The notes under the pieces: model-generated
What the model saw: the letters and a program-made list of their open reading frames with translations, nothing else
The model's database searches: none
What the model was told of the DNA's origin: nothing
NCBI RefSeq assembly: GCF_021398715.1
Contig: NZ_CP090347.1
Coordinates: forward strand, 930,001-994,000
Source of the DNA: Microbacterium binotii
GTDB lineage: Bacteria; Actinomycetota; Actinomycetes; Actinomycetales; Microbacteriaceae
Direction of reading: 5' to 3'
Length of the DNA: 64,000 nt
Position numbers and translations under genes: made by a program
Shown: positions 21,783 to 43,314 of the stretch, piece after piece
Layout of the letters: every line of letters begins with the position of its first letter
Position numbering within the stretch: position 1 is the first letter of the stretch

Positions 21783-22562
<780 letters not shown>

Positions 22563-22586
22563 GAAGGGGTTCTTTCTCTCGGGAGA

Positions 22587-23678
22587 TCAGCGGCCGGTCT
22601 TCGGCGCGAAGACCTTCGCGACGATCCGGGCGACGAGGTTGAGGAGCATGACGATGAGGATCAGGGTGAGGGCTGCGGCCCAGGCCCGATCCCAGTACGC
22701 CTCGGGCGGGATGCCCTGGTTCGCGTACTGCGTGTAGACGAAGACCGGCAGCGTCTGCATGCGGCCGTCGAAGAGGTTGTAGTTGAGCGAGTCGGTGAAG
22801 CCGGCCGTGATCAGCAGCGGCGCGGTCTCACCGATGACGCGGGAGATCGAGAGCATGACACCCGTCGTGATACCGGCGATCGCGGTCGGCAGCACGACCT
22901 TCACGATGGTCAGCCACTTCGGCACGCCGAGGGCGTACGACGCCTCGCGCAGCTCGTTCGGCACGAGCCGCAGCATCTCTTCGCTTGAGCGCACCACGAC
23001 GGGGATCATCAGCACGGCGAGCGCCACGGCGCCCATGATGCCCATGCGGATGCCGGGCCCGAAGAACAGTGCGAACAGCGCATAGGCGAACAGGCCGGCG
23101 ACGATCGAGGGGATGCCGGTCATGACGTCGACGAGGAAGGTGATCGCCTGGGCGAGCCGGCCACGGCCGTACTCGACGAGGTAGACCGAGGTGAGGAGCC
23201 CGATCGGGATGGAGATGATCGCCGCGGCGAGCGTGATCAGCACCGTTCCCCAGATGGCGTGCACGATGCCGCCGCCCTCACCGACGACGTTGCGCATCGA
23301 GGAGGAGAAGAACGTCGCGTCGAAGCGGGCGACACCGTTGGCGATGACGGTCCAGGCGACCGACACGAGCGGCACCATCGCGATGAGGAAGGCGCTCGAG
23401 ACGATGCCGGTGACGAGGCGGTCGACGGCCTTGCGGCTGCCCTCCACGATCGTGGAGATGACCGTGATGAGCACGAGGTAGACGAGCGCCGCCGAGACGA
23501 GCCAGCCCGCGACGTTCACACCCTCACCGGTCGCGGTGCCGAGGATGGCGAAGACGGCGAACATCGCGGCGAGCGATGCGCCCAGCAGCACCCAGGGGAA
23601 CCATCCGGCCAGTCGGCCGGCGCGCAGCTGTGCGCCGGATGCGGTGCGCGCGGGGGCTGCGGATTCGGTGATCGTCAT
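22587..23678 (-). CDS. pstA: phosphate ABC transporter permease PstA
   Basis: 363-residue permease with about eight hydrophobic segments; the N-terminus is longer than in E. coli PstA. The inner-membrane transport signature appears as EASYALGVPKWLTIVKVVLP, and the PstA-typical MTGIPSIVAGLFAYALF segment is visible. It forms the transmembrane channel with PstC and is energised by PstB. Its ATG lies 1 nt after the stop codon of pstC, indicating tight translational coupling, and it is 24 nt upstream of pstB. The first 25 or so residues are polar and Ala-rich. Confidence 0.96.
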   Translation of the reverse strand: MTITESAAPARTASGAQLRAGRLAGWFPWVLLGASLAAMFAVFAILGTATGEGVNVAGWLVSAALVYLVLITVISTIVEGSRKAVDRLVTGIVSSAFLIAMVPLVSVAWTVIANGVARFDATFFSSSMRNVVGEGGGIVHAIWGTVLITLAAAIISIPIGLLTSVYLVEYGRGRLAQAITFLVDVMTGIPSIVAGLFAYALFALFFGPGIRMGIMGAVALAVLMIPVVVRSSEEMLRLVPNELREASYALGVPKWLTIVKVVLPTAIAGITTGVMLSISRVIGETAPLLITAGFTDSLNYNLFDGRMQTLPVFVYTQYANQGIPPEAYWDRAWAAALTLILIVMLLNLVARIVAKVFAPKTGR

Positions 23679-23679
23679 G

Positions 23680-24627
23680 TCAGTTCGCCCCCGAGAATTC
23701 TTTGCGACGGCTGACGATCCAGCGCGCGATGGCGTTGACCACGAAGGTCACGATGAACAGGATGAGGCCGGTCGCGATGAGCACGTTGATGTTCGTGCCG
23801 TAGGCCTCGGGGAAGGTCAGTGCGATGTTCGCGGCGATCGTCGAGGGGTTCTGAGAGGTGAACAGCTGCCAGGTGACGGCGCCCGTGGTCGAGAGCACCA
23901 TGGCGACGGCCATGGTCTCGCCGAGGGCACGCCCGAGGCCGAGCATGGCTCCCGAGACGATCCCGGAGCGACCGAAGGGCAGCACGGCCATCCGGATCAT
24001 CTCCCAGCGGGTCGCACCGAGGGCGAGCGCTGCTTCTTCGTGCAGCTTCGGCGTCTGCAGGAACACCTCTCGGCAGATCGCCGTGATGATGGGGACCACC
24101 ATGACGGCGAGCACGATGCCGGCGGTGAAGATCGTGCGCCCCGTGGCCGAGACGTCACCGGAGAAGAGCGGGAACCATCCGGCATTCTGGTTCAGCCACG
24201 AGTAGACCGGCTGCACGGCGGGGGCCAGCACGAGGATGCCCCAGAGGCCGAAGACGACGGAAGGCACCGCGGCCAGCAGGTCGACGATGTAGCCGAGACC
24301 CTGCGCGAGGCGGCGCGGTGCGTAGTGGGTGATGAAGAGGGCGACGCCCAGCGACAGCGGAACGGCCATCAGCAGCGCGAGGAAGGCGGCCCACACCGTG
24401 CCGAACAGCAGCGGTGCGACATACGCCCAGAAGTTGGAGGAGAGCAGGGACGCCTGGGAGGCGTCTGCTCCGAGAGCCGGGATCGACTGGATGATGAGGA
24501 AGATCGCCACGGCGGCGAGCGTCACCAGGATCATGCTGCCGGCGGCCAGAGCGGAGCCCGAGAACCAGATGTCTCCGGGGCGCCGTTTGGCAGCGGGGCG
24601 GGTGGGTCCCGCGGCGGTGGCTGTCAT
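23680..24627 (-). CDS. pstC: phosphate ABC transporter permease PstC
   Basis: 315-residue permease with about seven hydrophobic segments. The permease loop EEAALALGATRWEMIRMAVLP and the LAAVPSVVFGLWGILVL segment place it in the PstC family. It pairs with PstA. It begins 78 nt after the pstS stop codon, and a strong hairpin (24664-24699) lies in that gap, so membrane components are probably made in smaller amounts than PstS. It runs directly into pstA with a 1-nt gap. Confidence 0.96.
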   Translation of the reverse strand: MTATAAGPTRPAAKRRPGDIWFSGSALAAGSMILVTLAAVAIFLIIQSIPALGADASQASLLSSNFWAYVAPLLFGTVWAAFLALLMAVPLSLGVALFITHYAPRRLAQGLGYIVDLLAAVPSVVFGLWGILVLAPAVQPVYSWLNQNAGWFPLFSGDVSATGRTIFTAGIVLAVMVVPIITAICREVFLQTPKLHEEAALALGATRWEMIRMAVLPFGRSGIVSGAMLGLGRALGETMAVAMVLSTTGAVTWQLFTSQNPSTIAANIALTFPEAYGTNINVLIATGLILFIVTFVVNAIARWIVSRRKEFSGAN

Positions 24628-24663
24628 CTATCGCTTTCTCGTCGTGTTCGGGTCAGGACGGGC

Positions 24664-24699
24664 CAGAGCGGCCCCGGGGGTGAACCCGGGGCCGCTCTG
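24664..24699 (-). terminator. intra-operon hairpin between pstS and pstC
   Basis: Perfect 15-bp stem (CAGAGCGGCCCCGGG and its complement, 6-nt loop) just after the pstS stop codon. It probably attenuates transcription or protects the pstS message, giving an excess of binding protein over permease. Confidence 0.82.
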
Positions 24700-24705
24700 T
24701 GCGTG

Positions 24706-25818
24706 TCAGGAGATGGCGTCGATGGCCGTCTGAGCGCGCTCGCGCAGCGTGTCGGAGATGGGGGCGCTGCCGGCGTTCTTGGCAGCGGCCTCCTGGCCCT
24801 CCTCGCTGATCGCCGTCGTGAAGAAGCCCTGGACGAGCTTCGCCGCAGCGGCGTCGGTGTACTTCTCGCAACCGATCAGGTAGCTGATGAGGACGACGGG
24901 GTAGGCGCCGGCCTCGGTCGTGGTGCGGTCGATCGTGATGGCGAGGTCGTTGTCGCCGCGGCCGTCCTCGAACGGCGACGCGTCGACGGCCGTGGCCGCA
25001 CCCTCGGCGGAGTGCGCGACGAAGTCATCGCCCACCTTGACCGCGACCGACGAGATGCCTGCGGCCTGCGACGAGTCGGCGTAGCCGATCGTGCCGTTGC
25101 CGCCCTTGACGGCGTTCACGACGCCCGAGGTGCCCTGAGCGGCCTCGCCGCCCGAGATCGGCCACTCCTCGACGGAGCCATAGGTCCAGCCGGCGGCGTC
25201 GGTCTTGGAGAGGTAGTCGGTGAAGTTGCCGGTCGTGCCCGACTTGTCGGAGCGGTGCACGGGCGTGATCGCCAGGTCGGGCAGCTTCGCGTCCTTGTTG
25301 GTCGCGGCGATGGCCGGGTCGTTCCAGTTGGTGATCGTGCCGGCGAAGATGCCCGCGATCGTGGCGGGGTCGAGGTTGAGCGCGTCGACTCCCTCGACGT
25401 TGAAGATGATCGCAATCGGCGACACGTAGGCCGGGATCTCGACGAGGCCCGAGTCGGGCGCGCAGGCGCTGAACGGGCCCGCGGTGATCTCGTCCTTCTT
25501 GAAGGCGCGGTCGGAGCCGGCGAACTGCACGGCGCCCGACTGGAACGACTCGCGGCCGGTGCCCGAGCCCTGCGGGTCGTAGTTGACCGTCAGGTCGGCG
25601 TTCGCCGTCTGCAGCAGCTGCGTCCAGGACTGGATGGCGACCTGCTGCGACGTGGCGCCGGAGCCGTTCAGGGTGCCGGAGAGACCGGTGGGCAGCGACG
25701 ACTCGGAACCGGCGGAGGTCTCGTTGCCTGCGGGCGCCTCGTTCGCGGCGCAGCCGGCGAGCGCGAGTGCCGCGATGGCGGCGATGGCGCCCACCTGGGC
25801 GATGCGGGTGATCTTCAC
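24706..25818 (-). CDS. pstS: phosphate-binding lipoprotein PstS
   Basis: About 370 residues. The start is placed at the GTG at 25818, because GAAGGA lies about 8 nt upstream; an in-frame GTG at 25833 is possible. The signal peptide ends in the lipobox LALAGC (Cys about 23), so it is a surface lipoprotein that captures phosphate for PstCAB. Phosphate-binding signatures include GSGATSQQVAIQSW, GSGTGRESF and HRSDKSGTTGNF. It is first in pstSCAB. A PHO box lies 91-108 nt upstream of the start, and a hairpin follows the stop codon. Length and motifs are normal for actinobacterial PstS. Confidence 0.97.
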   Translation of the reverse strand: MKITRIAQVGAIAAIAALALAGCAANEAPAGNETSAGSESSLPTGLSGTLNGSGATSQQVAIQSWTQLLQTANADLTVNYDPQGSGTGRESFQSGAVQFAGSDRAFKKDEITAGPFSACAPDSGLVEIPAYVSPIAIIFNVEGVDALNLDPATIAGIFAGTITNWNDPAIAATNKDAKLPDLAITPVHRSDKSGTTGNFTDYLSKTDAAGWTYGSVEEWPISGGEAAQGTSGVVNAVKGGNGTIGYADSSQAAGISSVAVKVGDDFVAHSAEGAATAVDASPFEDGRGDNDLAITIDRTTTEAGAYPVVLISYLIGCEKYTDAAAAKLVQGFFTTAISEEGQEAAAKNAGSAPISDTLRERAQTAIDAIS

Positions 25819-25908
25819 TGTGAAATCCTTCACGTGTCAGGGTTACGGGCCCGGTGCAGGGCTCGCCGAAGACGCTAAGCAGGCGCGTTTACCAGCGTCC
25901 GCTGTGCG

Positions 25909-25926
25909 GGTGAACGGAAGGTGAAC
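25909..25926 (-). promoter_or_regulatory. PHO box upstream of pstS
   Basis: On the minus strand two GTTCACC units (25926-25920 and 25915-25909) start exactly 11 bp apart, the classic direct-repeat arrangement of actinobacterial PhoP/RegX3-type phosphate operators. It lies about 90 bp upstream of the pstS start. Confidence 0.85.
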
Positions 25927-25971
25927 GAAGCGAGGCGGATGCGGTGGCGCGAGCGCGTGGCGACACCATCC

Positions 25972-25993
25972 GTTCACCCGCGCTCCCTACTTT
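25972..25993 (+). promoter_or_regulatory. leaderless promoter with a single PHO half-site, NRPS-like gene
   Basis: A GTTCACC unit (25972-25978) lies 9 nt upstream of TACTTT (25988-25993). That box is exactly 6 nt before the ATG at 26000. The half-site occupies the -35 position. The neighbouring 11-bp unit upstream is weak, so phosphate control of this gene is only a suggestion. Confidence 0.5.
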
Positions 25994-25999
25994 CGGCGC

Positions 26000-28900
26000 A
26001 TGCTCTCCGATTCGCAGGCCGTTCTGGACCGATCCGCCGAGGCGCCGTCGCCTCGCACCCTGGTGGACATCCTGCGCGAGAGCGCCAGGCGCCATCCCGA
26101 GGCGTCGGCGGTCGACGACGGCTCGGGTGCGCTGAGCTACGCAGAGCTGATGGCCCACGTCAGTCGCACCGCTGCACGCCTGATCGCCGCGGGTGTGCGC
26201 CGCGGCGACCGTGTCGGGGTGCGTATGCCTTCGGGATCGAAGGATCTGTACGTCGCCATCCTCGGGGTGCTCGTCGCCGGAGCGGCGTATGTTCCCGTGG
26301 ATGCGGACGACCCCGACGAGCGTGCGCGCCTCGTGTTCGGGGAGGCGCGCGTGGCCGGGGTCATCGGAGCCGGCGGTGTGTACGTCGCGTCGGAGGGGTC
26401 GACGACTGCGGTCGAGCTGAATGACGGAGACGCCCCGCATCCGTCGACGCGCGCGTTCGACGCGGTTCCGGTCGTGGCGGAAGAGGACGACGCCTGGATC
26501 ATCTTCACCTCCGGCTCCACGGGGGTACCGAAGGGGGTGGCGGTGAGTCACCGGTCGGCGGCGGCCTTCGTGGATGCCGAGGCGCGCATGTTCCTCCAGG
26601 ATGCGCCCCTCGGCCCGGGTGATCGGGTGCTGGCCGGCCTCTCGGTCGCCTTCGACGCCTCCTGCGAGGAGATGTGGTTGGCCTGGCGCCACGGCGCCTG
26701 CCTCGTCCCGGCTCCTCGCTCGCTCGTGCGTTCGGGGGAGGATCTCGCACCGTGGCTGATCCGTCAGGGCATCACCGCGGTCTCGACGGTGCCGACGCTG
26801 GCGGCGATGTGGCCGGCGGAGGCCATCGAGAATGTGCGGCTGCTCATCTTCGGCGGGGAGGCGTGCCCGCCCGAACTCGCCGCGCGCCTGCAGGCCGAGG
26901 GTCGCGAGGTGTGGAACACCTACGGGCCCACGGAGGCGACCGTGGTGGCCTGCGGCTCGCTCATGGACGGCTCGGCCCCGGTGCGGATCGGACTGCCGCT
27001 GGACGGCTGGATGCTCGCCGTGGTGGATGCCGACGGTGCTCGTGTGGGCGAGGGTGAGATCGGCGAGCTGATCATCGGCGGCGTCGGCCTGGCGCGCTAC
27101 CTCGATCCGACGAAGGATGCGGAGAAGTACGCGCCCATGCCCTCCCTGGGGTGGGAGCGCGCCTACCGCTCGGGTGACCTGGTCCGCTTCGAGAGCGCGG
27201 GTCTCGTGTTTCAGGGGCGGGCCGACGACCAGGTGAAGGTCGGGGGGCGACGGATCGAACTCGGCGAGGTCGAGTCCGCGCTGCAGGAGCTCCCGGGCGT
27301 GCACGCCGCCGCGGCGGCGGTGCGGCACAGCGAGGCGGGAGTGGCCGTCCTGGTGGGTTATCTCGTTCTCGAGCCGGGGGTCGAACTCGACCGTGCCGAG
27401 GCGAGGGCCCGCCTGGCCGACAGCCTCCCGGCGGCGATCGTCCCGCTGCTCGCCGTCGTCGACGAGCTACCCGTCCGGACGTCGGGCAAGGTCGACCGGG
27501 CCGGGTTGCCGTGGCCGCTGCCGGGCGTGGAGGCGCCGCCGTCGGGACTCGATCCCGCCGAGGCGTGGCTGGCGGAGCAGTGGCAAGCGGTACTGGGTGT
27601 TGCCGTGCCCGGGCGGAAGGCGGACTTCTTCGACCTCGGCGGCGGCTCGCTGGCCGCCGCGCAGCTCGTGTCCCGCATCCGTGCGCGCGTCCCGGAGTTC
27701 GCCGTCGCCGACATCTACGACATGCCCCGTCTGTCGGCGATGGCCAAGGCGCTCGGACCATTCCTGCCCGACGCGGAGGGCGGTGAGTACCGACGCCCCG
27801 AACCGACGCCGCGCGCGACGCAGTGGCTGCAGACGCTGGCGGGTGCCCCGTTGTTCATCCTGTCCGGCGTGCGGTGGCTGCTCTACATCCTCACCGCGGG
27901 CACCCTCCTCAACCTCTTCCCCGGCTTCGGTGCCCTTCCGACGGCGCCGGTGTGGCTGCTCGTGGTCGGGTGGCTCCTGTTCGCGACGCCGTTCGGGCGG
28001 ATGGTGCTCGCCGCCGCATCCGCGCGTGTCCTGCTCGCGGGGCTGCGACCGGGGGACTATCCGCGCGGGGGAGCGGTGCATCTGCGGGTGTGGCTGGCGG
28101 AGCAGATCGCGGACCAGGTGGATGCGGTCGGTCTCGCCGGGGCCCCCTGGATCACCTACTACGCCCGGGCGCTGGGGGCCCGGATCGGCCGCGACGTCGA
28201 TCTGCACACGCTGCCTCCCGTCACCGGGATGCTCGAGGTGGGCGACGGCGCGTCGATCGAGCCCGAGGTGGATCTGCGCGGCTATTGGATCGACGGCGAC
28301 CTCCTGCGCGTGGGCGCCATCCGCATCGGCGCCGCGGCGACCATCGGCGCGCGCAGCACCCTCGCTCCGGGCACGCGCATCGGGCAGCGCGCGGAGATCG
28401 CCCCCGGCTCCGCCGTCTTCGGGCGGGTGCGGGCGGCGCAGACCTGGGCGGGGTCACCTGCGGTCCGCGTGGGCGCGGTCGCGGAGGACTGGCCCGCCGA
28501 GCGGCCCCCCACTCCGCATCGCTGGATGTGGGCGTACGGCGCGTCGGCGCTGGCGCTCGCCGTGCTCCCGGTGTTCGCGATCCTCTGCGGCGCGGTCGTG
28601 CTGGCCGCCGGTGTGCAGGGTGCCCCGTCGTTGTCCGCCGCATTCGGTGCGGCGGCGTCGTGGCTCGTGCCGGCCGTGCTCGTGTGCGGTCTCGTGCTCG
28701 CCGGCGTCGTGGTGGTCGCGGTGCGCCTGCTCTCGATCGGACTCGTGGAGGGCACGTATCCCGTGCGCAGCCGAGTCGCGTGGCAGGCGTGGACGATCGA
28801 GCGCCTTCTGGACGCGGCGCGCACCATCCTCTTCCCGCTCTACTCGAGCCTGTTCACTCCCGTCTGGCTCCGGATGCTGGGTGCCCGCGTAGGCCGCGAC

Positions 28901-29932
28901 GTCGAGGCGTCGACGGTGTTGCTGCTGCCATCGCTCGCGCGGATCGAGGACGGCGCCTTTCTCGCCGATGACACGATGGTCGCCTCCTACGAGCTGCACG
29001 CCGGGTGGATGCGGCTGGGCGCCGTCCGCATCGGCAAGCGCGCCTTCCTCGGGAACTCCGGCATGGCGGCGCCGGGGCATCGCGTGCCCCGTGACGGGCT
29101 GGTGGCGGTGCTGTCGTCGGCGCCGCGCAAGGCGAAGCCGGGATCGTCGTGGCTGGGCTCGCCGGCGGTGCGCCTGCGCCGCGCCGTCACCGAAGCGGAT
29201 GAGTCGCGCACCTACCGCCCGACGCCCGGTCTGCGTCTCGCGCGGGCGCTCTGGGAGCTGTGCCGCTTCGTCCCCGTCGTCGTGACCTGTGCGATCGGGC
29301 TGTCGGTGCTGTTCGCGCTCGCGGGACTCACGGTCTGGCTCGGCTGGGTGGGGGCGCTCCTGCTGTCGGGGATCGTGATGCTGGCGGCGGGGGCTGTCGC
29401 GGCCGCGGTCACCGTGGTCGCGAAGTGGGCGATCGTCGGCCCCATCCGTGCCGGCGAGCAGCCCCTCTGGTCCAGCTTCGTCTGGCGGACGGAAGTCGTC
29501 GACACGTTCACCGAGATGGTGGCGGCGATGTGGTTCGCACGTGCTGCCGTCGGCACACCGGCCCTGGCAGTGTGGCTGCGGGCGATGGGGGCGCGCATCG
29601 GCACCGGTGTCTGGTGCGACTCCTACTGGCTCCCCGAACCGGATCTGGTCACGCTCGGCGACGGAGCGACGGTCAACCGGGGGTGCGTCGTGCAGACCCA
29701 CCTGTTCCATGATCGAATCATGAGCATGGACACCGTAGAGCTCGAGCCCGGCGCGACGCTGGGTCCGCACAGCGTGATCCTGCCCGCGGCCGTCATCGGT
29801 GCCGACGCGACCGTCGGTCCCGCATCCCTCGTGATGCGCGGCGAGGCGGTTCCGGTCGGCACCCGCTGGAGCGGCAATCCCATCGGCCCCTGGCGTGCGG
29901 TCAAGGTGCGCGCGTACCAGTCCACCTCGTGA
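26000..29932 (+). CDS. Pls/PosA-type NRPS-like poly-amino-acid synthetase
   Basis: 1310 residues. N-terminal adenylation domain (about 15-510): FTSGSTGVPKG (from residue 169), NTYGPTE, YRSGDLV, and the catalytic Lys497 in RTSGKVDR. Next is a carrier domain with FDLGGGSL (Ser550, phosphopantetheine site). No condensation or thioesterase domain follows. Instead there are about six membrane segments (around 610-670, 850-930, 1080-1150) alternating with three left-handed-beta-helix-like soluble domains. This is the architecture of the Pls/PosA family that includes epsilon-poly-L-lysine synthetase. Amino acid specificity cannot be read by eye. The downstream M1 peptidase overlaps by GTGA, and a phosphopantetheinyl transferase converges on it. 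The start is probably leaderless. Confidence 0.87.
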   Translation: MLSDSQAVLDRSAEAPSPRTLVDILRESARRHPEASAVDDGSGALSYAELMAHVSRTAARLIAAGVRRGDRVGVRMPSGSKDLYVAILGVLVAGAAYVPVDADDPDERARLVFGEARVAGVIGAGGVYVASEGSTTAVELNDGDAPHPSTRAFDAVPVVAEEDDAWIIFTSGSTGVPKGVAVSHRSAAAFVDAEARMFLQDAPLGPGDRVLAGLSVAFDASCEEMWLAWRHGACLVPAPRSLVRSGEDLAPWLIRQGITAVSTVPTLAAMWPAEAIENVRLLIFGGEACPPELAARLQAEGREVWNTYGPTEATVVACGSLMDGSAPVRIGLPLDGWMLAVVDADGARVGEGEIGELIIGGVGLARYLDPTKDAEKYAPMPSLGWERAYRSGDLVRFESAGLVFQGRADDQVKVGGRRIELGEVESALQELPGVHAAAAAVRHSEAGVAVLVGYLVLEPGVELDRAEARARLADSLPAAIVPLLAVVDELPVRTSGKVDRAGLPWPLPGVEAPPSGLDPAEAWLAEQWQAVLGVAVPGRKADFFDLGGGSLAAAQLVSRIRARVPEFAVADIYDMPRLSAMAKALGPFLPDAEGGEYRRPEPTPRATQWLQTLAGAPLFILSGVRWLLYILTAGTLLNLFPGFGALPTAPVWLLVVGWLLFATPFGRMVLAAASARVLLAGLRPGDYPRGGAVHLRVWLAEQIADQVDAVGLAGAPWITYYARALGARIGRDVDLHTLPPVTGMLEVGDGASIEPEVDLRGYWIDGDLLRVGAIRIGAAATIGARSTLAPGTRIGQRAEIAPGSAVFGRVRAAQTWAGSPAVRVGAVAEDWPAERPPTPHRWMWAYGASALALAVLPVFAILCGAVVLAAGVQGAPSLSAAFGAAASWLVPAVLVCGLVLAGVVVVAVRLLSIGLVEGTYPVRSRVAWQAWTIERLLDAARTILFPLYSSLFTPVWLRMLGARVGRDVEASTVLLLPSLARIEDGAFLADDTMVASYELHAGWMRLGAVRIGKRAFLGNSGMAAPGHRVPRDGLVAVLSSAPRKAKPGSSWLGSPAVRLRRAVTEADESRTYRPTPGLRLARALWELCRFVPVVVTCAIGLSVLFALAGLTVWLGWVGALLLSGIVMLAAGAVAAAVTVVAKWAIVGPIRAGEQPLWSSFVWRTEVVDTFTEMVAAMWFARAAVGTPALAVWLRAMGARIGTGVWCDSYWLPEPDLVTLGDGATVNRGCVVQTHLFHDRIMSMDTVELEPGATLGPHSVILPAAVIGADATVGPASLVMRGEAVPVGTRWSGNPIGPWRAVKVRAYQSTS

Positions 29933-31206
29933 CCGGCGACGCCTACGCCCCGCGCAGCGGCGACGTCACCTACGACGTCGTCTCCTACGATCTCGACCTC
30001 GACTACCGGGTTCGCACCAACCGCCTGAGTGGAACCGCCACGATCGTGGCGACCGCGTCGACCGGCCTGCGCGGCGTGAGGCTGGATCTCATCGGATTGC
30101 GCGTCACCCGGGTTCGTGTCGACGGCGCGAGCCCGGCGGTGCAGCGCCAGAGCGCGCAGCATCTGCAGATCGGATTCGGCCGCGACGTCGCGGCGGGGGA
30201 GACGTTCACGATCGAGGTGCGCTACGAAGGCTCGCCCGCGCCGCGGCGTTCGCCGTGGGGCACCATCGGCTGGGAGGAGCTGACCGACGGAGCCCTCGTG
30301 GCTAACCAGCCGACGGGCGCATCGACCTGGTTCCCCTGCAACGACCGTCCCGATAACCGCGCCCGGATGCGGATGAGGATCGCCACCGATCGCGAGTACA
30401 CCGCCGTCGCGGTGGGCGCCCGCATCCTGGATCAGGTGCAGGGACGCCGCAGGATCACAGAGTACGTCTCCGACGTGCCCACCGCGACGTATCTGGCGGC
30501 GGTGCAGATCGGCCGCTACGGGCGTACCGAGATCGCCGCCGCCGTGCCGGTCGAGCTCTGGGCGCCGACAGCGCTGCGGGCGCCGGCCGCCGCGGCGTTC
30601 GCCGACCTTCCGCTGATGATCGCGGCGTTCGCCGAGCGGTTCGGTCCGTATCCGCAGAGCCAGTACCGCGTCGTCGTGACCGCCGACGATCTCGAGATCC
30701 CGCTCGAGTCGCAGGGTATGGCGGTGTTCGGCGCGAATCATCTGGATGCGGCGAGTGAGCGACTCGTGGCGCACGAGCTCGCGCACCAGTGGTTCGGAAA
30801 CAGCGTCGGAATCGCGCGCTGGCAGGACATCTGGCTCAACGAGGGCTTCGCCTGCTACGCCGAATGGCTGTGGTCGGAGGCATCGGGCGGACCGGATGCC
30901 GACGCCTGCGCGCGTACCCACCTGCGCCGGCTCGCGGATGAGCCGCAGGACCTGGTGATCGCCGATCCGGGCGCGGCCCTGCTGTTCGACGACCGGGTCT
31001 ACAAGCGCGGCGCCCTCGCCCTGCATGCCCTGCGGCTGCACCTGGGTGATGCGGCGTTCTTCGAGCTGCTGCGCTCCTGGACCGCAGCCCACCGGCACGG
31101 GCTGGTCGTCACCGACGACTTCCGCGGCCTGCTCGACGGCGCCTCGGCGGACCTGCTCAGCTCGTGGATCGATCGGGCTCCGCTGCCGCGGCTCGCGCGA
31201 CGCTGA
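29929..31206 (+). CDS. M1-family zinc aminopeptidase (soluble)
   Basis: 425-residue metallopeptidase with the gluzincin site HELAH (His282, Glu283, His286) and the third ligand Glu305 in WLNEGFACYAEW. An exopeptidase-like loop appears as ESQGMAVFG in place of the usual GAMEN. An N-terminal beta domain covers about residues 10-190. It is shorter than PepN and lacks a signal peptide, so it is cytoplasmic. Its GTG start overlaps the TGA of the NRPS-like synthetase gene, so the two proteins are made together. It may trim or degrade the product or process its precursor; this is inference. Its 3' end overlaps the converging transferase gene by 50 nt. Confidence 0.9.
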   Translation: MTGDAYAPRSGDVTYDVVSYDLDLDYRVRTNRLSGTATIVATASTGLRGVRLDLIGLRVTRVRVDGASPAVQRQSAQHLQIGFGRDVAAGETFTIEVRYEGSPAPRRSPWGTIGWEELTDGALVANQPTGASTWFPCNDRPDNRARMRMRIATDREYTAVAVGARILDQVQGRRRITEYVSDVPTATYLAAVQIGRYGRTEIAAAVPVELWAPTALRAPAAAAFADLPLMIAAFAERFGPYPQSQYRVVVTADDLEIPLESQGMAVFGANHLDAASERLVAHELAHQWFGNSVGIARWQDIWLNEGFACYAEWLWSEASGGPDADACARTHLRRLADEPQDLVIADPGAALLFDDRVYKRGALALHALRLHLGDAAFFELLRSWTAAHRHGLVVTDDFRGLLDGASADLLSSWIDRAPLPRLARR

Positions 31207-31663
31207 TCACGAAGCCGGCGGGGGCGTCGATCTCACGGCCGTGCACTGCGCGGCCGGCGACGGCCGCCTTCCAGATCTCTCCTTCGGTGACGACAAGCAG
31301 GTGGGCGCCGTCGCGGAGGTCGCCCCCGATGGCTTTGGTCGCGGCCTCGAACCTCGTCCAGTCCCGCAGGGTTGCGCCGGGAGCGAGCCGATCGAGCCGC
31401 GCCGGTGAGGATGCGGCACCTCGCTCGACGTCGACGCCGATGTCGCCGTCCTCTGCCAGCGCCGCGACCACGAGATCGCCCGCGTAGGCGAGGGAGACGG
31501 AGCCGCCTCCCTCGAGGCGGGGTCGCCCGTGGTCGCCGCCGCACCGGGCGCACGGTCCGTGCCGGAGTGTGCGCCCCGTGGCGTCGCGGACGAGCCGGGC
31601 GGCAGCCGTTCGTCGTTCGGCACCGTCCCGCGTGGTCCAGACCACGCGGATCGCGTGCGGCAT
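31157..31663 (-). CDS. 4'-phosphopantetheinyl transferase, Sfp-type
   Basis: 168 residues. CARCGGDHGRPRL near residue 40 and the metal-binding DIGVDVE (about 98-104) are Sfp-type signatures. WTRFEAATKAIGGDL follows, corresponding to W-x-x-(K)E-x-x-x-K, with Phe where Lys is common. It transfers phosphopantetheine from CoA to carrier-domain serines. The likely substrate is Ser550 of the NRPS-like synthetase, whose transcript it faces; the genes' 3' ends overlap by 50 nt with the M1 peptidase in between. It is somewhat shorter than typical Sfp. An AAGG ribosome site precedes the ATG. It shares direction with mutT1-ppk1 and lies 4 nt downstream of mutT1. Confidence 0.87.
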   Translation of the reverse strand: MPHAIRVVWTTRDGAERRTAAARLVRDATGRTLRHGPCARCGGDHGRPRLEGGGSVSLAYAGDLVVAALAEDGDIGVDVERGAASSPARLDRLAPGATLRDWTRFEAATKAIGGDLRDGAHLLVVTEGEIWKAAVAGRAVHGREIDAPAGFVISVARAAAAEPDRSTS

Positions 31664-31666
31664 GTG

Positions 31667-32605
31667 TCAGACCTTCGGCAGGTGCGTCTCGATCGCGGCG
31701 ATGCCGGAACCGGGGTTCGTGCGCGACAGGTGCACCACCGAGAATCCGCCGACCTCCAGCGCGGACGCGCTGCCGAGATACGATCCGCGCAGGGTGCCGG
31801 TCGCGAGAGCCAGTTCGTGCAGGATGTCCGGCAGAACCGGCCCGTGGCTGCACACCACGGCAGGTTTGCGCGAGCGCACCCGCTTGCCGACGACCGTGCG
31901 GGCGTCGGAGCGCCCCTCCTCCCAGGCGTCCTGGCTGATGAGCTCGCTCGTCTTGACCGACCGCCCGAGGGCGGCGGACAGCGGAGCCACCGTCTCGGTG
32001 CATCGCACCGCATCCGACGACACGATCCGACGGACGCCGAACGTGCTCAGCGGTCCGACGATCGCCTCCGCCTGCTTACGCCCGCGCGCGGTAAGGGGAC
32101 GGGACGCATCGGAGCCCGACCACTCGTCGCGCGGCGTGGCCTTCGCGTGGCGCAGCACGATGATCGGGAAGGTCTCCAGCACACCGTCGTCGACGAACCG
32201 CAGGAAGTTCTCGACGATCTCCACGTCGACGGGGTAGCTGAGGTAGGTGAGCGCCTTGCGCGGGCTCACCCATTCGATGGCGGCGATCTCCTTGTTCGGC
32301 ACGAACGCGGACGCGCGGATGGCGGCATCGGTGGCCTCTGCCGACCAGTAGTGCACGATCTTCTCGCGCCGGCTCGGCAATGTGTAGCGGGAGACGCCGA
32401 CCGGGAGCCCGAGCGAGACGGCGATCCCGGTCTCCTCGAAGATCTCGCGCACGGCGGTTTCCACCAGCGCCTCGCCCGGGTCGACCTTCCCCTTCGGAAG
32501 GGTGACGTCTCGGTACCGGGTGCGGTGGATGAGGAGGATCTTCAGCTTGTCCTCGACCCGGCGCCAGACGATTCCGCCCGCGGCATAGACGGCGGTGTGC
32601 GTCAT
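31667..32605 (-). CDS. MutT1-type NUDIX hydrolase fused to histidine phosphatase
   Basis: 312 residues with two domains. The N-terminal NUDIX fold (about 1-135) carries the box G-x5-E-x7-REIFEETGI within [23 protein letters not shown]. The C-terminal phosphoglycerate-mutase-like phosphatase (about 160-312) carries the catalytic VLRHAKA and CSHGPVLP. This is the mycobacterial MutT1 arrangement, which sanitises 8-oxo-GTP/dGTP and diadenosine polyphosphates. The ATG at 32605 overlaps the ppk1 stop in an ATGA; longer upstream starts would run into ppk1. It probably acts with polyphosphate kinase in nucleotide/polyphosphate metabolism. Confidence 0.92.
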
Positions 32606-34767
32606 CGCACCGCCCTCGAACGCCGACGACGCTGCACCTGGAACATCGTCTTGTCCTGCAGATCGACGAGGGCCTTGCCGTCGGCGTCGGTCGAATGCCG
32701 CGTCCACGTGCCGTCGCCCGAGAGCCACCAGGAGCTCGTGTTGTCGCTCATCGCGAGCGAGAACAGATCGCCCAGCTCGGCGATCTGGGCGGGCGCCGTG
32801 ATGCGCACGAGCGCCTCGACGCGGCGGTCGAGGTTGCGGTGCATCATGTCGGCCGATCCGATGAACGTCTCGGGGTCGCCGTCGTTGTCGAACGCGAAGA
32901 TCCGCGAGTGCTCGAGGTAGCGGCCGAGGATCGAGCGCACCGTGATGTTCTCGCTCAGCCCCTCGACGCCGGGTCGGATGCTGCAGATGCCGCGCACCCA
33001 GACCTCGACCGGCACTCCGGCGCGGCTCGCCCGGTAGAGCGCGTCGATGATCTGCTCGTCGACCATCGAGTTGACCTTGATGCGGATGCCGGAGCTCTTG
33101 CCGTCGAGGGCGTGCTTGCGCTCGCGTTCGATGAGGCGGACGAGACCCTTGCGCAGGTGCAGCGGAGCGACGAGCAGACGCTTGAACTTCTTCTCGATCG
33201 CGTACCCGCTCAGCTCGTTGAACAGGCGGGTGAGGTCGCGGCCGACCTCGTCGCTCGCGGTGAACAGGCCGAAGTCCTCGTAGATGCGGCTTGTCTTCGG
33301 GTTGTAGTTGCCGGTTCCGACGTGGCAGTAGCTGCGCAGCACGCCGTTCTCCTCGCGGATCACGAGGGCGAGCTTGCAGTGCGTCTTCAGTCCGACGAGG
33401 CCGTAGACGACGTGCACACCGGCCTTCTCGAGCTTGCGGGCCCAGACGATGTTGTTCGCCTCGTCGAAGCGCGCCTTGACCTCGACGAGGGCCAGCACCT
33501 GCTTGCCCGCCTCGGCGGCGTCGATCAGCGCCTGAACGATGGGGCTGTCGCCCGACGTGCGGTACAGGGTCTGCTTGATGGCGAGCACGTGCGGGTCTTT
33601 CGCCGCCTGCTCGAGGAAGGCCTGCACGCTGGTGGCGAAGGACTCATAAGGGTGGTGCACCAGCACGTCGCCCTTGCGGATGGCGGCGAAGATGTCGGCA
33701 CGCTCGTTGTTGTCGCCCGGCTGGAACGCCAGCGCCGTCGTGGGAACGTGCGGGGGGTAGTGCAGGTCGGGACGGTCGATGCGCGACAGGTCGAAGAGCC
33801 CCCGCAGATCCAGCGGGCCGGGGAGACGATAGACCTCCTGCTCGGTGATGTCGAGCTCCTTGATCAGCAGGTCGAGGGTGAGCTCGTCCATGTCGTCGGT
33901 GATCTCGAGGCGGATCGGCGGCCCGAAGCGGCGGCGCATCAACTCGGCCTCGAGCGCCTGGATGAGGTTCTCGGTCTCGTCCTCTTCGATCACCATGTCT
34001 TCGTTGCGCGTGAGCCGGAACGCGTGGTGGTCGAGGATCTCCATGCCCGGGAACAGGTCGGACAGGTGGTTGGCGATCAGGTCTTCGAGAGCGAGGTAGC
34101 GCACCCGCTCGCCGTCACGCGAGACCTCGACGAAACGCGGGAGCATGGGCGGCACCTTCAGGCGCGCGAACTCCTGTCGGCCGGTCTTCGCGTTGCGGAT
34201 GCGGATGGCCAGGTTCAGCGACAGGCCGGAGATGTAGGGGAAGGGGTGGGCGGGATCGACCGCGAGCGGCATGAGCACCGGGAACACCTGAGACTGGAAG
34301 TAGTCCGACAGGCGCGCGCGGTCGTCTTCGTCGAGGTCGCCCCAGCCGATCACCTCGATGCCGGAGCTTGCCAGTGCGGGGCGCACGAGCTGCTGCCATG
34401 CCTCGGCGTGACGCAGCTGGAGGGCATGGGCTTCGCCGGAGATGTCGGCGAGGACGTCTTGCGCCGCACGGCCGACGTTCGTCGGCACCGCGAGGCCCGT
34501 GATGATGCGGCGCTTGAGTCCCGCGACGCGGACCATGAAGAACTCGTCGAGGTTGCTGCCGAAGATGGCGAGGAAGTTCGCGCGCTCGAGCGTCGGCACG
34601 GTCGGGTCCTCCGCGAGCTCCAGCACGCGCTGGTTGAACGCCAGCCAGCTCAGCTCGCGATCGAGATACCGCGCCTCGGGCAGCTCCGTGTCACCGCCGT
34701 CGGTGACGTCGAAGTCGTCGTCGTCGGCATCGCCCAGGCCCGCATCGAGCATCACGTCGGAGATCAT
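32602..34767 (-). CDS. ppk1: polyphosphate kinase 1
   Basis: 721-residue enzyme that reversibly polymerises the gamma-phosphate of ATP into polyphosphate. Visible are the N-terminal [19 protein letters not shown], the [16 protein letters not shown] segment, and the phospholipase-D-like catalytic core with [20 protein letters not shown], which holds the phosphorylated His. The later [16 protein letters not shown] and [10 protein letters not shown] are also family signatures. I place the start at the ATG at 34767, which has AAGGA 7 nt upstream, rather than at GTG 34773. It is coupled to mutT1 by ATGA overlap and lies 49 nt after the GlnR-like regulator, in the same direction. Length is normal. 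Confidence 0.97.
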
Positions 34768-34816
34768 TCCCACATCCTTGCAGCCAGAGGTGACACGAGT
34801 GTGAACTCCGCGAGGG

Positions 34817-35512
34817 TCAGGATCCGGCGCGCTCCCCGGCAGCCGGGATCTGGTCCTCTTCGTACACGTTGAAGCGGTAGCCGACGTTGCGCACGGTGCC
34901 GATCAGCTGCTCGAGGTCGCCGAGCTTGGCGCGCAGGCGCCGCACGTGCACGTCGACCGTGCGCGTGCCGCCGAAGTAGTCGTAGCCCCAGACTTCGCTG
35001 AGCAGCTGCTCCCGCGTGAACACCCGCGACGGATGCGTCGCGAAGAAGTGCAGCAGCTGGAACTCCTTGTAGGTCAGATCCAGCGGCTTGCCGTGCACCT
35101 TGGCGGAGTACGAGGATTCGTCGATCGTGATGCCGGAGGTCTGGATGCGGGTCGACACCTGCTCCTTCGACATGCGCCCGACGGCGAGTCGGATGCGGGC
35201 GTCGACCTCGGCAGGGCCCGCCCCGACGAGGATCACGTCGTCGACGCCCCAGTCGGTGGACACCGCGGTCAGTCCGCCCTCGGTGACAATGAGCACGAGC
35301 GGCGCATCGAGCCCCGTGGTCGTCAGGATCTTGCACAGCGACTTGGCGCCCACCAGATCGTGACGCGCATCGACGAAGACGACGTCGGCGTTCGGCGCGT
35401 TCACCAGCTGCGCGGGCTCGGCGGGGATCTGGCGGACACGATGGCTCAACAGTTCCAGCGCCGGGAGCGCAGGCGCGCTACCGGCGGAACTCAGAACGAG
35501 AAGCTGTGCCAA
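34817..35512 (-). CDS. GlnR-like orphan OmpR-family response regulator
   Basis: About 231 residues. The N-terminal receiver-like domain resembles mycobacterial and streptomycete Gln[20 protein letters not shown] and [20 protein letters not shown], with the Asp equivalent in FVDAR. The C-terminal winged helix (about 125-222) ends [11 protein letters not shown]. GlnR controls nitrogen assimilation genes and works without a dedicated kinase. The reading frame also opens at GTG 35518, but GGAGG abuts that codon, so a TTG at 35512 (6-nt spacing) is more likely. It precedes ppk1. GlnR sits near phosphate genes in mycobacteria too, which supports the call. Confidence 0.78.
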
Positions 35513-35629
35513 AGTCACCCTCCGGGCGGGGTCCGCGTCGTGCTCATCTTATGCGCAGCCGCGAGGCACGCAGATCTCACCGGTGACGCATGACGTGCAG
35601 CGCGCGCTCCCATGCGTGAGAATGATCGT

Positions 35630-40564: not shown

Positions 40565-41233
40565 TCAGATCTGCGGTTCGGCCTCGGGCTGGGGGGCCCA
40601 GTCGCCCGTCGCCAGGTAGACGATCTTCTTGGCGACCGAGACCGCGTGGTCGCCGAAACGCTCGTGGTAGCGGCTCGCCAGCGTCGCGTCGACCGTCGCG
40701 GCCGCCTCGCCCTGCCAGGACTCGCTGAGCACCTTCTCGAACACGCTGACGTGCAGCTCGTCCAGCTTGTCGTCCTCGTTGCGCAGCTGCTCGGCCAGAT
40801 CCAGGTCGCGGGTTCGCAGCAGCTCGGTGAGCTTGCGCGCGACGTCGACGTCGATCTCGCCCATCTTGGTGAAGGTCCCCTTCAGGCCCTTCGGGATGGC
40901 GCGGTCCGGGAAACGCATACGGGTCAGCTGCGCGATGTGCTCGGCGATGTCGCCCATGCGCTCGAGTGACGCACTGATGCGCAGTGCCGAGACGACCGTG
41001 CGCAGGTCGCTCGCGACGGGCTGCTGACGCGCCAGGATGTCGATGGCCAGCTCGTCGAGCTCGATCGCCTTGTCGTCGATCACCGAGTCGTTGTCGATGA
41101 CCTCTTCGGCGAGCGCGACGTCGCTCGTTCCGAACGCCCTCGTCGCCTTCTCGATGGCCTCGGTGACGAGCTCGGAGATCTCGACGAGCCGGACACGGAC
41201 CTCATCGAGGGACTGCTGGAAAACCTCGCGCAT
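40565..41233 (-). CDS. phoU: phosphate signalling protein PhoU
   Basis: 222-residue all-helical protein made of two PhoU repeats (about 5-100 and 115-205), with metal-binding-type motifs: IDNDSVIDDKAIELDELAIDIL and ERMGDIAEHIAQL in the first, EDDKLDELHVSVF and ERFGDHAVSVAKKIVYL in the second. It senses Pst transport activity and restrains the phosphate kinase. It is divergent from the SenX3-like kinase/RegX3-like regulator genes rather than part of pstSCAB, which is about 15 kb away. An AAGGTG site precedes the ATG. Confidence 0.96.
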   Translation of the reverse strand: MREVFQQSLDEVRVRLVEISELVTEAIEKATRAFGTSDVALAEEVIDNDSVIDDKAIELDELAIDILARQQPVASDLRTVVSALRISASLERMGDIAEHIAQLTRMRFPDRAIPKGLKGTFTKMGEIDVDVARKLTELLRTRDLDLAEQLRNEDDKLDELHVSVFEKVLSESWQGEAAATVDATLASRYHERFGDHAVSVAKKIVYLATGDWAPQPEAEPQI

Positions 41234-41401
41234 GAAACAGGCACCTTCCTGGGGTGGTCGTGGGCGGCACGGGACGGGCCCGGGCGATTCTCGCCGTCGA
41301 AGGTTAACGAACGGTGCCGCGGGAGTGAATGTTACCTGCGGCAGGGCCCCGGAAGGCGCCTGAGACCGGGTGCGGGTTCAGCGTCCATTTACGCTGGAGC
41401 C

Positions 41402-42634
41402 ATGAACTCGTCGCAGCTCGCGCTGCTGGCCCTGGTCATGGGCGTCGTCCTCGGGGCGTCGATCACCCTCTTGATCATCGGCGCGATGCGCGCGCGGGCC
41501 CGCGTTGAGGCGCGCAACTCGACGGCCGTTCCGGAGGGCGTTCCGGACGTTCTGTCCGCGATGGATGACAGCGCGCTGGTGGTGGACGGTTCGGGAACGG
41601 TGCGTGCCGCATCCGCATCCGCAGAGGCCTTCGGGATCCACGTCGACGAGGTCGTGCCCGACGAACGCATCCGTGAACTCGCTCGCGCGGTGCGCGCGGG
41701 AGGGATCAGCACGGCGAGCCTGACGCTGCGCCGCTCCTCCTCTCCCGCGGAGCCCCGCCTCGTCTCGGCCCGCGCGACGACCATCTCGCCGAAGCTCGTT
41801 CTCATCGTCATCCGCGACATCACCGAGCGCGAGCGGGTCGAACAGATGCGCCGTGACTTCGTTGCGAACACCTCCCACGAGCTGAAGACGCCGGTGGGAG
41901 CGGTGAGTCTGCTCGCGGAGGCGATCGAGTCCGCGGCGGACGATCCCGCGCAGGTGCGCATCTTCGCCGGCCGGCTGAGCGCCGAGGCGCAGCGGCTGGC
42001 CTCGTTGACCTCTCGTGTCATGAACCTCTCCCGGCTGCAGTCCGCGGACGAACTCGCCGAGGTCGGCGACGTGTCGGTGGATTCCGTCGTCACGGCCGCC
42101 TGCGAGGCGCACGCGCTCGCCGCGGGCTCCGCCGGGGTGACGGTCGTGCGCGGCGGCACGCGAGGCCTGTACGTGCGCGGCGACACGCAGATCCTCACCG
42201 AGGCGCTCGGCAACCTGGTGGCCAACGCGATCGCGTATTCGCCCAGCGGTTCGAGCGTGGGCATCGGTGTGAAGCAGGTGCACAACGCCGTGGAGATCGC
42301 GGTCACCGATCGGGGCATCGGCATCTCCGAGGCCGATCAGCAACGCGTGTTCGAGCGCTTCTTCCGCTCGGACCAGGCGCGCTCCCGCCGCACCGGCGGC
42401 ACGGGGTTGGGGCTGTCGATCGTGAAGCACGCGGTTCAGCGGCACGGCGGCGAGGTGCGCGTGTGGTCGCGCGTCGGACGCGGCTCGACGTTCACCATCC
42501 AGCTTCCGATCGCGATGCCGCCCGACGACCTCGAGGCCGTGACGCCCCGCGGCCGGCGCCGCCCCAAGAAGACCAAGAAGACCCCCGCCGCGTCCACAGC
42601 CGCGGCACCGAACCCGAACGGAGTCACCGAATGA
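41402..42634 (+). CDS. senX3: SenX3/PhoR-type sensor histidine kinase
   Basis: 410 residues. One N-terminal membrane helix (about 7-28), a PAS-like domain (about 45-145), the H-box FVANTSHELKTPVGAVSLLAEA with phospho-accepting His159, and a catalytic domain with N-box LGNLVANAIAYSP, VTDRGIGIS and GGTGLGLSIVKHA. The tail is basic and Ala/Pro-rich. It overlaps the response regulator by ATGA. Position beside phoU and architecture identify it as the phosphate-sensing kinase of the SenX3-RegX3 pair. The ATG is 6 nt after TACGCT; a weak GTTCAGC lies upstream. Confidence 0.93.
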   Translation: MNSSQLALLALVMGVVLGASITLLIIGAMRARARVEARNSTAVPEGVPDVLSAMDDSALVVDGSGTVRAASASAEAFGIHVDEVVPDERIRELARAVRAGGISTASLTLRRSSSPAEPRLVSARATTISPKLVLIVIRDITERERVEQMRRDFVANTSHELKTPVGAVSLLAEAIESAADDPAQVRIFAGRLSAEAQRLASLTSRVMNLSRLQSADELAEVGDVSVDSVVTAACEAHALAAGSAGVTVVRGGTRGLYVRGDTQILTEALGNLVANAIAYSPSGSSVGIGVKQVHNAVEIAVTDRGIGISEADQQRVFERFFRSDQARSRRTGGTGLGLSIVKHAVQRHGGEVRVWSRVGRGSTFTIQLPIAMPPDDLEAVTPRGRRRPKKTKKTPAASTAAAPNPNGVTE

Positions 42635-43314
42635 CCCGCGTCCTGATCGTCGAGGACGAGCCCGACCTCGCCGACCCGCTCGCCTACCTGCTTCGCAGGG
42701 AGGGGTTCGAGGTCGAGATCGCCGAAGACGGCGCCGTCGCGCTCTCCGCGTTCCGCGAACGCGGTGCCGATATCGTGCTGCTCGATCTCATGCTGCCCGG
42801 TATGCCCGGCACCGAGGTGTGCCGTCAGATCCGCACCGTCTCGTCCGTGCCGATCATCATGCTGACCGCCAAGGACAGCGAGGTAGACATCGTCGTGGGA
42901 CTGGAGCTCGGCGCCGACGACTACGTCACCAAGCCGTACTCGGCCCGCGAACTCCTGGCGCGGATGCGGGCGGTGCTGCGCCGCTTCGCCCAGGTGGAGG
43001 CCGACCTCGACGAGCGCGTCCTTCAAGGCGGACGGGTGACGCTGGACATCGACCGCCACACCGTGACCGTGGGCGGCGAGGAGATCAACATGCCGCTCAA
43101 GGAGTTCGAGCTCCTCGAGGTGCTGATGCGCAACGCCGGTCGCGTGCTGACCCGGGGGCAGCTCATCGACCGTGTCTGGGGCACCGACTACTTCGGTGAC
43201 ACGAAGACCCTCGACGTGCACATCAAGCGCATCCGCTCGCGCATCGAGCAGAACCCGAGCGATCCGGTCATGCTGGTGACCGTCCGCGGACTGGGCTACC
43301 GGTTCGAGGCCTGA
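42631..43314 (+). CDS. regX3: RegX3/PhoP-type response regulator
   Basis: 227-residue OmpR-family regulator. Receiver domain with acidic pocket EDEPDL, phospho-acceptor Asp in VLLDLMLPG (about residue 52), Thr in MLTAKD and Lys in VTKPYS. The winged-helix DNA-binding domain (about 130-225) has the recognition segment GDTKTLDVHIKRIRSRIE. It is translated with the kinase (ATGA overlap). It is the best candidate for binding the PHO box at pstS. A bidirectional terminator follows. Confidence 0.95.
   Translation: MTRVLIVEDEPDLADPLAYLLRREGFEVEIAEDGAVALSAFRERGADIVLLDLMLPGMPGTEVCRQIRTVSSVPIIMLTAKDSEVDIVVGLELGADDYVTKPYSARELLARMRAVLRRFAQVEADLDERVLQGGRVTLDIDRHTVTVGGEEINMPLKEFELLEVLMRNAGRVLTRGQLIDRVWGTDYFGDTKTLDVHIKRIRSRIEQNPSDPVMLVTVRGLGYRFEA

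Follow-up and report, generated by a model that had tools for sequence, protein, structure and literature searches.

A probable phosphate-linked operon of the pls-pldII type for epsilon-poly-lysine in Microbacterium binotii

What does a poly-amino-acid synthetase make when a zinc peptidase is coupled to it and a phosphopantetheinyl transferase gene converges on both, and when would such a set of genes be used? The question is raised by a locus in a 64,000-nucleotide (nt) stretch of Microbacterium binotii DNA (contig NZ_CP090347.1, positions 930,001 to 994,000; hereafter the window), whose source genome is one contig of 3.29 Mb. Here pls, a gene for a synthetase of the Pls/PosA family, is followed by a gene for an M1 peptidase, and the transferase gene lies beyond on the opposite strand (Table 1). 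Our best explanation, which we regard as very probable, is a phosphate-linked operon of the pls-pldII type that makes and degrades epsilon-poly-lysine. The gene set described in the original prediction is genuine, and the novelty claimed there for the coupled M1 gene is unfounded. A PHO-box promoter and the missing leader of the M1 peptidase go beyond that account. Three features look new: the M1 has no leader, the convergent transferase recurs and, most notably, pls has a PHO-box promoter.

The promoter was studied across pls loci. These were the best 80 loci from a scan of genome contigs, in which more existed, plus 40 selected stretches, 120 in total; related genomes among them are dependent samples. 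A later set of 40 loci was chosen to span the genera of the window's order, and four of these share upstream sequence with earlier loci. No motif was preset, and dinucleotide shuffles served as the baseline. GTTCACC was the most over-represented 7-mer upstream of pls, found in 29 of 106 'non-redundant', that is mildly filtered, regions against 2.1 expected. Second GTTCACC-like units in pls orientation recur at a period of 11 nt (28 pairs, against 0 to 8 at the other spacings from 7 to 30). The reverse strand also peaks at 11 nt, with 17 pairs (12 at 15 nt), partly from boxes that face pstS. GTTCACC is the PHO unit of Streptomyces coelicolor, and the PHO box was originally defined as two 7-nt units set 4 nt apart (PMC4415409). 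The 11-nt period reproduces this layout, and the pls promoter is probably Pho-type.

Dimers matching at least 12 of 14 positions point toward pls in 17 of 114 regions and occur in 1 of 626 control regions upstream of other genes at the same loci (Fisher 8e-14), the controls being taken upstream of mechanically picked start codons, so that coding DNA may be included. A TAnnnT element lies 9 nt past the best dimer in 11 of 31 strong cases, including the window, and at none of the other spacings up to 19 nt. A composite was then defined as a dimer of at least 10 matches, 9 nt and xAnnnT. It precedes pls in 29 of 114 regions against 10 of 626 controls, and spacings of 5 to 8 or 10 to 13 nt gave 0 to 4 of 114. 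Held-out regions drawn from the window's own order, scanned with the motif preset, carried the composite at spacing 9 in 14 of 36 cases; other spacings from 4 to 14 gave 0 to 2.

In the window the pls-facing dimer is imperfect (11/14). The TACTTT that follows it ends 6 nt before the pls ATG, so that the mRNA is probably leaderless. Position 25972, where the original prediction begins, lies upstream of the gene and belongs to the GTTCACC unit of this promoter. When a dimer of at least 11 is required, the 64 kb hold three composites. One faces pls, one (25926 downwards) faces pstS and one (34806 downwards) faces ppk. Lowering the threshold to 10 adds another three, of which one, at 41319, lies upstream of phoU. 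The ppk promoter (34806-34774, minus strand) reads GTTCACA-CTCG-TGTCACC, 9 nt, AAGGAT and start codon. Six of the 10 composite-bearing controls likewise lie upstream of ppk, in related Microbacterium loci, where ppk was recognised by eye. Since these controls are ppk and the window ppk has the composite too, the odds of a Pho reading are raised and those of a box for pstS alone lowered. From these sequences we lean towards the view that phosphate limitation switches pls and its polymer on. Among the open-access papers listed in the searches none was found to link phosphate or Pho to poly-lysine, and in the one listed paper on epsilon-poly-lysine production PhoP appears in the reference list only.

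The PHO box could instead serve pstS only, the pls-facing unit being there by chance. The dimer on the pstS strand is perfect and is the sole match in the window at two or fewer mismatches (0 mismatches; shuffles average 0.33), whereas the pls-facing dimer reaches merely 11/14 and sits inside the pstS-pls divergent region. However, the composite also precedes pls at loci without an adjacent pstS (29/114 regions; 14/36 held-out). By tblastn, a pstS homologue lies in the flank of 12 of the best 80 pls loci, 11 from Microbacteriaceae and one from Arthrobacter. The controls are also hard to square with chance, as they gave 10/626 with six of these at ppk, and in the window composites with a dimer of at least 11 stand only before pls, pstS and ppk. 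We therefore consider it unlikely that the box serves pstS alone.

A different OmpR-family regulator, GlnR-like or AfsR-like, might also read the box, in which case the signal would not be phosphate. OmpR-type regulators can bind similar direct repeats, and the window encodes at 34817-35518 a winged-helix regulator that we take to resemble GlnR. Direct repeats of 7 bp separated by 4 bp are also what PhoP of Mycobacterium tuberculosis recognises (PMC4832192). Against a non-phosphate signal, the GTTCACC unit and the 7-4-7 layout are those of the PHO box (PMC4415409), and the same composite stands before pstS and ppk in the window and before ppk in six relatives. Such a regulator is as doubtful a candidate as a box for pstS alone, and a Pho-type switch remains the preferred reading of the promoter.

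The second line of evidence is the linkage of pls to the M1 gene. The GTG start of the M1 overlaps the pls TGA as predicted, with 4 nt shared (29929-29932). An M1 match lies downstream of pls in all of the best 80 loci. Among the 115 loci with a lysine-type code, 105 have the M1 within 400 nt downstream on the same strand, the match starting between 180 nt before and 219 nt after the pls stop. The later set gave 38 of 40 within 400 nt. Of the 105 M1 starts, 54 share 4 nt with the pls stop and 22 share 1 nt (76 together), the M1 start being taken as the in-frame start codon closest to the pls stop, a choice that favours overlaps. Loci with short flanks (L081-L110), which served for M1 presence alone, had an M1 in 26 of 27 with a full-length synthetase. 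It was not found in L100, the same place as L130, nor in the short flanks of L081, L091 and L092. The last three encode shorter TIGR02353 proteins (open frames of 880-1106 aa, 25-26% identity) in Streptomyces-type genomes. The original prediction had proposed a survey of neighbourhoods for the M1 gene, with rare co-occurrence as the refuting outcome; instead the two genes co-occur at nearly all loci (105/115 and 38/40). An incidental linkage of pls and M1, far outstripped by these counts, is ruled out.

Five pairs of loci (L115/L116, L119/L120, L121/L122, L123/L124 and L125/L126) come from Streptomyces-type genomes that hold both an S. albulus-type and a widespread-type pls. The S. albulus-type copy has no nearby M1 in two of the five.

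M1 zinc peptidases are marked by HEXXH-x18-E, a catalytic Tyr and an amine-binding Glu. The window protein, 93% identical to a Microbacterium neimengense protein, has H282/E283/H286, E305, Y358 and E260, the last at the position of the GAMEN glutamate. The catalytic residues are invariant across a 19-row alignment, where they are numbered one lower. The model reaches a pLDDT of 91, and its best fold matches are Deinococcus two-domain M1 proteins.

The leader separates this peptidase from its Streptomyces albulus counterparts. A tree of 120 leaves groups the 11 S. albulus-type synthetases in a single clade (support 1.0), and 9 of these 11 loci have a coupled M1. All nine M1 proteins carry an RRxhh motif with a hydrophobic stretch, a Tat-like leader. 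None of the 92 other judged M1 has the motif (4 of the 105 were not judgeable). Hydropathy maxima are at most 1.08 in the 92 and 1.36-1.90 in the S. albulus-clade nine; 36 starts judged in the later set had a maximum of 0.41. In the window the conserved domain begins a few residues past the GTG, and there is no leader. An exported PldII proper was set aside because of this absence, hence 'PldII-like'. The M1, being leaderless, is therefore probably a cytosolic enzyme, both here and across most of the sampled actinobacteria.

Could the M1 be a general intracellular aminopeptidase that shares the operon and is inactive on the polymer? According to entry titles, the peptide present in crystals of the structurally closest enzyme, the Deinococcus two-domain M1, was an ordinary one (Tyr-Ser-Ala). 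Such a role would sit badly with the linkage (105/115 and 38/40) and the start-stop overlaps (76/105), and the S. albulus enzyme degrades epsilon-poly-lysine (PMC4361855, PMC9223678). The genome also has two other M1-family frames (G000:C1:1565191 and 804758, with open frames of 947 and 1402 aa), one of which is likely PepN. We find a general aminopeptidase quite improbable here and retain a polymer-directed M1 as the likely reading.

The synthetase itself matches its predicted A-T-membrane architecture. Pfam places AMP-binding at residues 25-366, AMP-binding_C at 423-497 and PP-binding at 523-585, and finds neither a condensation nor a thioesterase domain at E≤0.001, as had been stated. The proposed profile check gave TIGR02353 at residues 610-1295 with 712 bits against a cut-off of 423. 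Three beta-helix-like domains had also been described. TIGR02353 spans this C-terminal region at full length, but a single hexapeptide stretch (Hexapep, 774-806) passes the Pfam cut-off, so the number three is borne out only in part. Past residue 600 a simple hydropathy scan finds seven hydrophobic stretches; two overlap, which makes about six. The published Pls architecture has three acetyltransferase-related domains and six transmembrane segments (PMC8117764).

The nearest PDB sequence is 7wew, the adenylation domain of an epsilon-poly-L-lysine synthase (610 bits), and the two substrate pockets are nearly identical letter for letter. The specificity check that had been suggested returned the lysine-type code DAESIGTVVK, the same as in S. 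albulus-type loci. This code occurs in 113 of the 120 loci and DAESVGTVVK in two, which gives the lysine-type total of 115. At pocket position 2 Ala marks the lysine type, with Met in PosA and Phe in PDAP/PDAB (PMC10522769); the window pocket follows the lysine rule with Asp1, Ala2 and Glu3. S. albulus Pls uses lysine in vitro (PMC4361855), and Corynebacterium variabile Pls made 26-35-mers in S. coelicolor (PMC8117764). Because the pocket code is identical and homologues have been tested, we take L-lysine as the likely substrate and epsilon-poly-lysine as the likely product. A polymer of a different amino acid, such as ornithine or diaminobutyrate, or a short peptide is a highly improbable product. 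Several diamino acids are indeed accepted by Pls/PosA members (PMC10522769), but position 2 is the lysine-type Ala, the full code matches S. albulus-type loci, and the four DFE-code synthetases (L136-L139) differ in code and have no directly adjoining M1. In the window's order a close pls is present in 105 of 347 sampled genomes.

Three of the DFE-code loci (L137-L139, DFEY code) have an M1 peptidase about 940 nt downstream of the synthetase. In L137, the one of the three that was read, one gene lies in between and the M1 has a Sec-like leader. Pld-like enzymes may accompany diaminobutyrate-type synthetases too.

The third gene is the convergent transferase. Sfp-type enzymes have acidic metal-ligand motifs, GVDVE and xEAxxK. 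The window protein has GVDVE at residue 76 and xEAxxK at residue 105; D78, E106 and K110 are invariant in 25 transferase sequences (77, 105 and 109 in the alignment), and E80 varies. Pfam gives no match to it even at E≤10. Five relatives were searched for the ACPS domain PF01648, and two scored above the cut-off, two below, and one had no match. The model has a pLDDT of 89, and its 32 best Foldseek matches are all phosphopantetheinyl transferases. On this predicted fold the product is a compact Sfp-type phosphopantetheinyl transferase, and its open reading frame (ORF) converges on the M1 gene with the 50-nt 3' overlap first described. A spurious ORF is ruled out by recurrence across loci and by the predicted fold.

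A profile search places a convergent transferase 1.2-2.1 kb beyond pls in 39 of 120 loci. The profile was built from 24 loci and the window, and 23 of the 39 belong to it by construction. In the later set it is present in 23 of 40 loci and 19 of 36 non-repeats. L026 has its transferase upstream of pls. In L131 the gene directly after a lysine-code pls, on the same strand, encodes a 253-aa Sfp-type transferase, with no M1 in the 2.5 kb left of the contig. PF01648 matches the genome once, in a 132-aa frame elsewhere. The window transferase may be the genome's only Sfp-type enzyme; the PF01648 search misses the window protein too, and hence perhaps other divergent ones. No link between a poly-L-lysine synthetase and a phosphopantetheinyl transferase was found in the open-access passages searched.

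These parts suggest the following pathway. Under low phosphate a PhoP/RegX3-type regulator on the PHO box would drive transcription of pls and M1. The convergent transferase would place phosphopantetheine on the T domain of Pls. The adenylation domain would activate L-lysine, and the C-terminal domains would link the alpha-carboxyl to the epsilon-amine, giving epsilon-poly-lysine. The coupled M1 would hydrolyse this polymer, as PldII does. In the cytosol it might clear internal polycation or recover lysine, in contrast to the outside role reported for PldII. A free alpha-amine stands at every scissile carbonyl of epsilon-poly-lysine, and an amine-reading M1 fold could cut anywhere. An M1 fold without the usual C-terminal cap would permit internal cuts. 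One idea is that such an uncapped, amine-reading M1 would account for the endo-type action reported for an 'aminopeptidase'. The M1 role we prefer is polymer disposal inside the cell.

Several observations weigh against a phosphate-linked operon that makes and degrades epsilon-poly-lysine. The composite is missing from 85 of 114 pls regions and 22 of 36 held-out regions. It is found in 0 of 19 Streptomyces-type loci (L111-L129) and is not universal. The M1 lies 630-2170 nt from pls in 5 of the 115 lysine-code loci, and was not found in the stretch of another five (L123, L125, L130, L131 and L135; the L131 contig ends 2.5 kb past pls) or in two of the 40 later loci (L174 and L189). C. variabile has a working pls, yet protein and product went undetected in its own culture (PMC8117764). 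In S. albulus, polymer output and length stayed the same when Pld and PldII were lost (PMC8506220). The unchanged length indicates that the peptidase is not length-setting. Trimming, recycling or detoxifying had been proposed for the M1; degradation of the polymer is still the most likely of its actions, and simple trimming is disfavoured.

The biological significance of bacterial polycations has been described as unclear (PMC9606270). A phosphate switch, if true, would explain why strains with pls can seem silent when grown in ordinary culture, and would hint at the reason for which many actinobacteria retain apparently silent pls genes. It would also suggest a physiological role for the polymer, for example in retaining anionic phosphorus polymers or in killing neighbouring cells to obtain their phosphate. 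The purpose and timing of the polymer would become a short experiment at low versus high phosphate. The switch might further give a simple induction condition for epsilon-poly-lysine in non-Streptomyces hosts. A leaderless M1 would shift self-protection from outside to inside the cell.

Phosphate genes, assigned by eye from ORFs, surround the operon at 21783-25833, 32602-34773 and 40565-43314. The first block is a pst-type ABC transporter with pstS, and the second is ppk-like. The third holds a phoU-like gene (40565-41233) and a SenX3/RegX3-like pair (41402-43314). The regulator gene beyond ppk encodes an OmpR-type winged-helix protein with an unusual receiver. At 31667-32728 lies a fusion of NUDIX and histidine-phosphatase domains, which the Microbacterium-type loci L001-L010 and L012 keep at the same place next to pls.

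Table 1. Features of the pls locus, in window coordinates
Feature	Position	Strand	Basis
pls, epsilon-poly-lysine synthase homologue, 1310 aa	26000..29932	+	TIGR02353, PDB 7wew match, pocket code
Adenylation (A) domain, residues 25-497	26072..27490	+	PF00501 225 bits, PF13193 32 bits
Carrier (T) domain, residues 523-585, LGGGS from residue 546	27566..27754	+	PF00550 37 bits
Pls/PosA terminal domain, residues 610-1295	27827..29884	+	TIGR02353
M1 two-domain zinc peptidase, PldII-like, leaderless, 425 aa	29929..31206	+	PF01433/PF17900, HEXXH, model
Compact Sfp-type 4'-phosphopantetheinyl transferase (predicted), 168 aa, convergent	31157..31663	-	Fold model, relatives with PF01648
PHO-box-like dimer CGACACC-ATCC-GTTCACC, 11/14, toward pls	25961..25978	+	Motif scan
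-10-like TACTTT, 9 nt past the dimer, 6 nt ahead of ATG	25988..25993	+	Motif scan
Perfect PHO-box dimer GTTCACC-TTCC-GTTCACC toward pstS; GACGCT 9 nt on	25909..25926	-	Motif scan
pstS-like neighbour, divergent from pls	24706..25833	-	ORF, assigned by eye

How does the locus compare with known systems? The two-domain M1 of Deinococcus radiodurans (6a8z) matches the window M1 in fold over its whole length (TM 0.91, 30% identity); to our knowledge it has no link to a polymer synthetase. PosA of Acinetobacter baumannii, a delta-poly-ornithine synthetase, belongs to the same synthetase family as the window Pls (PMC10522769). Its pocket code, DMEHNGTVSK, is unlike that of the window, and the word 'peptidase' is absent from the main text of that paper (PMC10522769). 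The Pls of C. variabile is 51% identical to that of S. albulus and, as in the window, a peptidase is in the operon (PMC8117764); the same paper names Microbacterium among the genera with homologues.

The closest comparison is with pls-pldII of S. albulus. There pldII adjoins pls with a 4-bp overlap (PMC4361855), and PldII is described as a translationally coupled aminopeptidase outside the membrane (PMC9223678). The adenylation domains of L111-L114 share 89-93% identity with the solved S. albulus synthase, and each of these loci has an M1 of the same family with a 4-nt overlap. L111-L115 and L117, all of S. albulus type, have a 4-nt overlap between pls and M1. The original prediction had held a coupled aminopeptidase to be foreign to poly-lysine systems; the literature and the same overlap in S. 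albulus-type loci overturn this, and the coupled M1 is no novelty. The window shares with S. albulus the gene order, the 4-nt overlap and the synthetase family and, through close S. albulus relatives, the adenylation-domain code and the peptidase family. It differs in three respects. Its Pls is 52-55% identical overall to the S. albulus-type enzymes. Its M1 is leaderless, whereas the S. albulus-type M1 has a Tat-type leader. Its PHO-box promoter and convergent transferase were not found in S. albulus-type loci. Judged by sequence, with PldII matched through L111-L114 and not through its own sequence, the window pair is the form that the known pls-pldII operon takes in Microbacterium.

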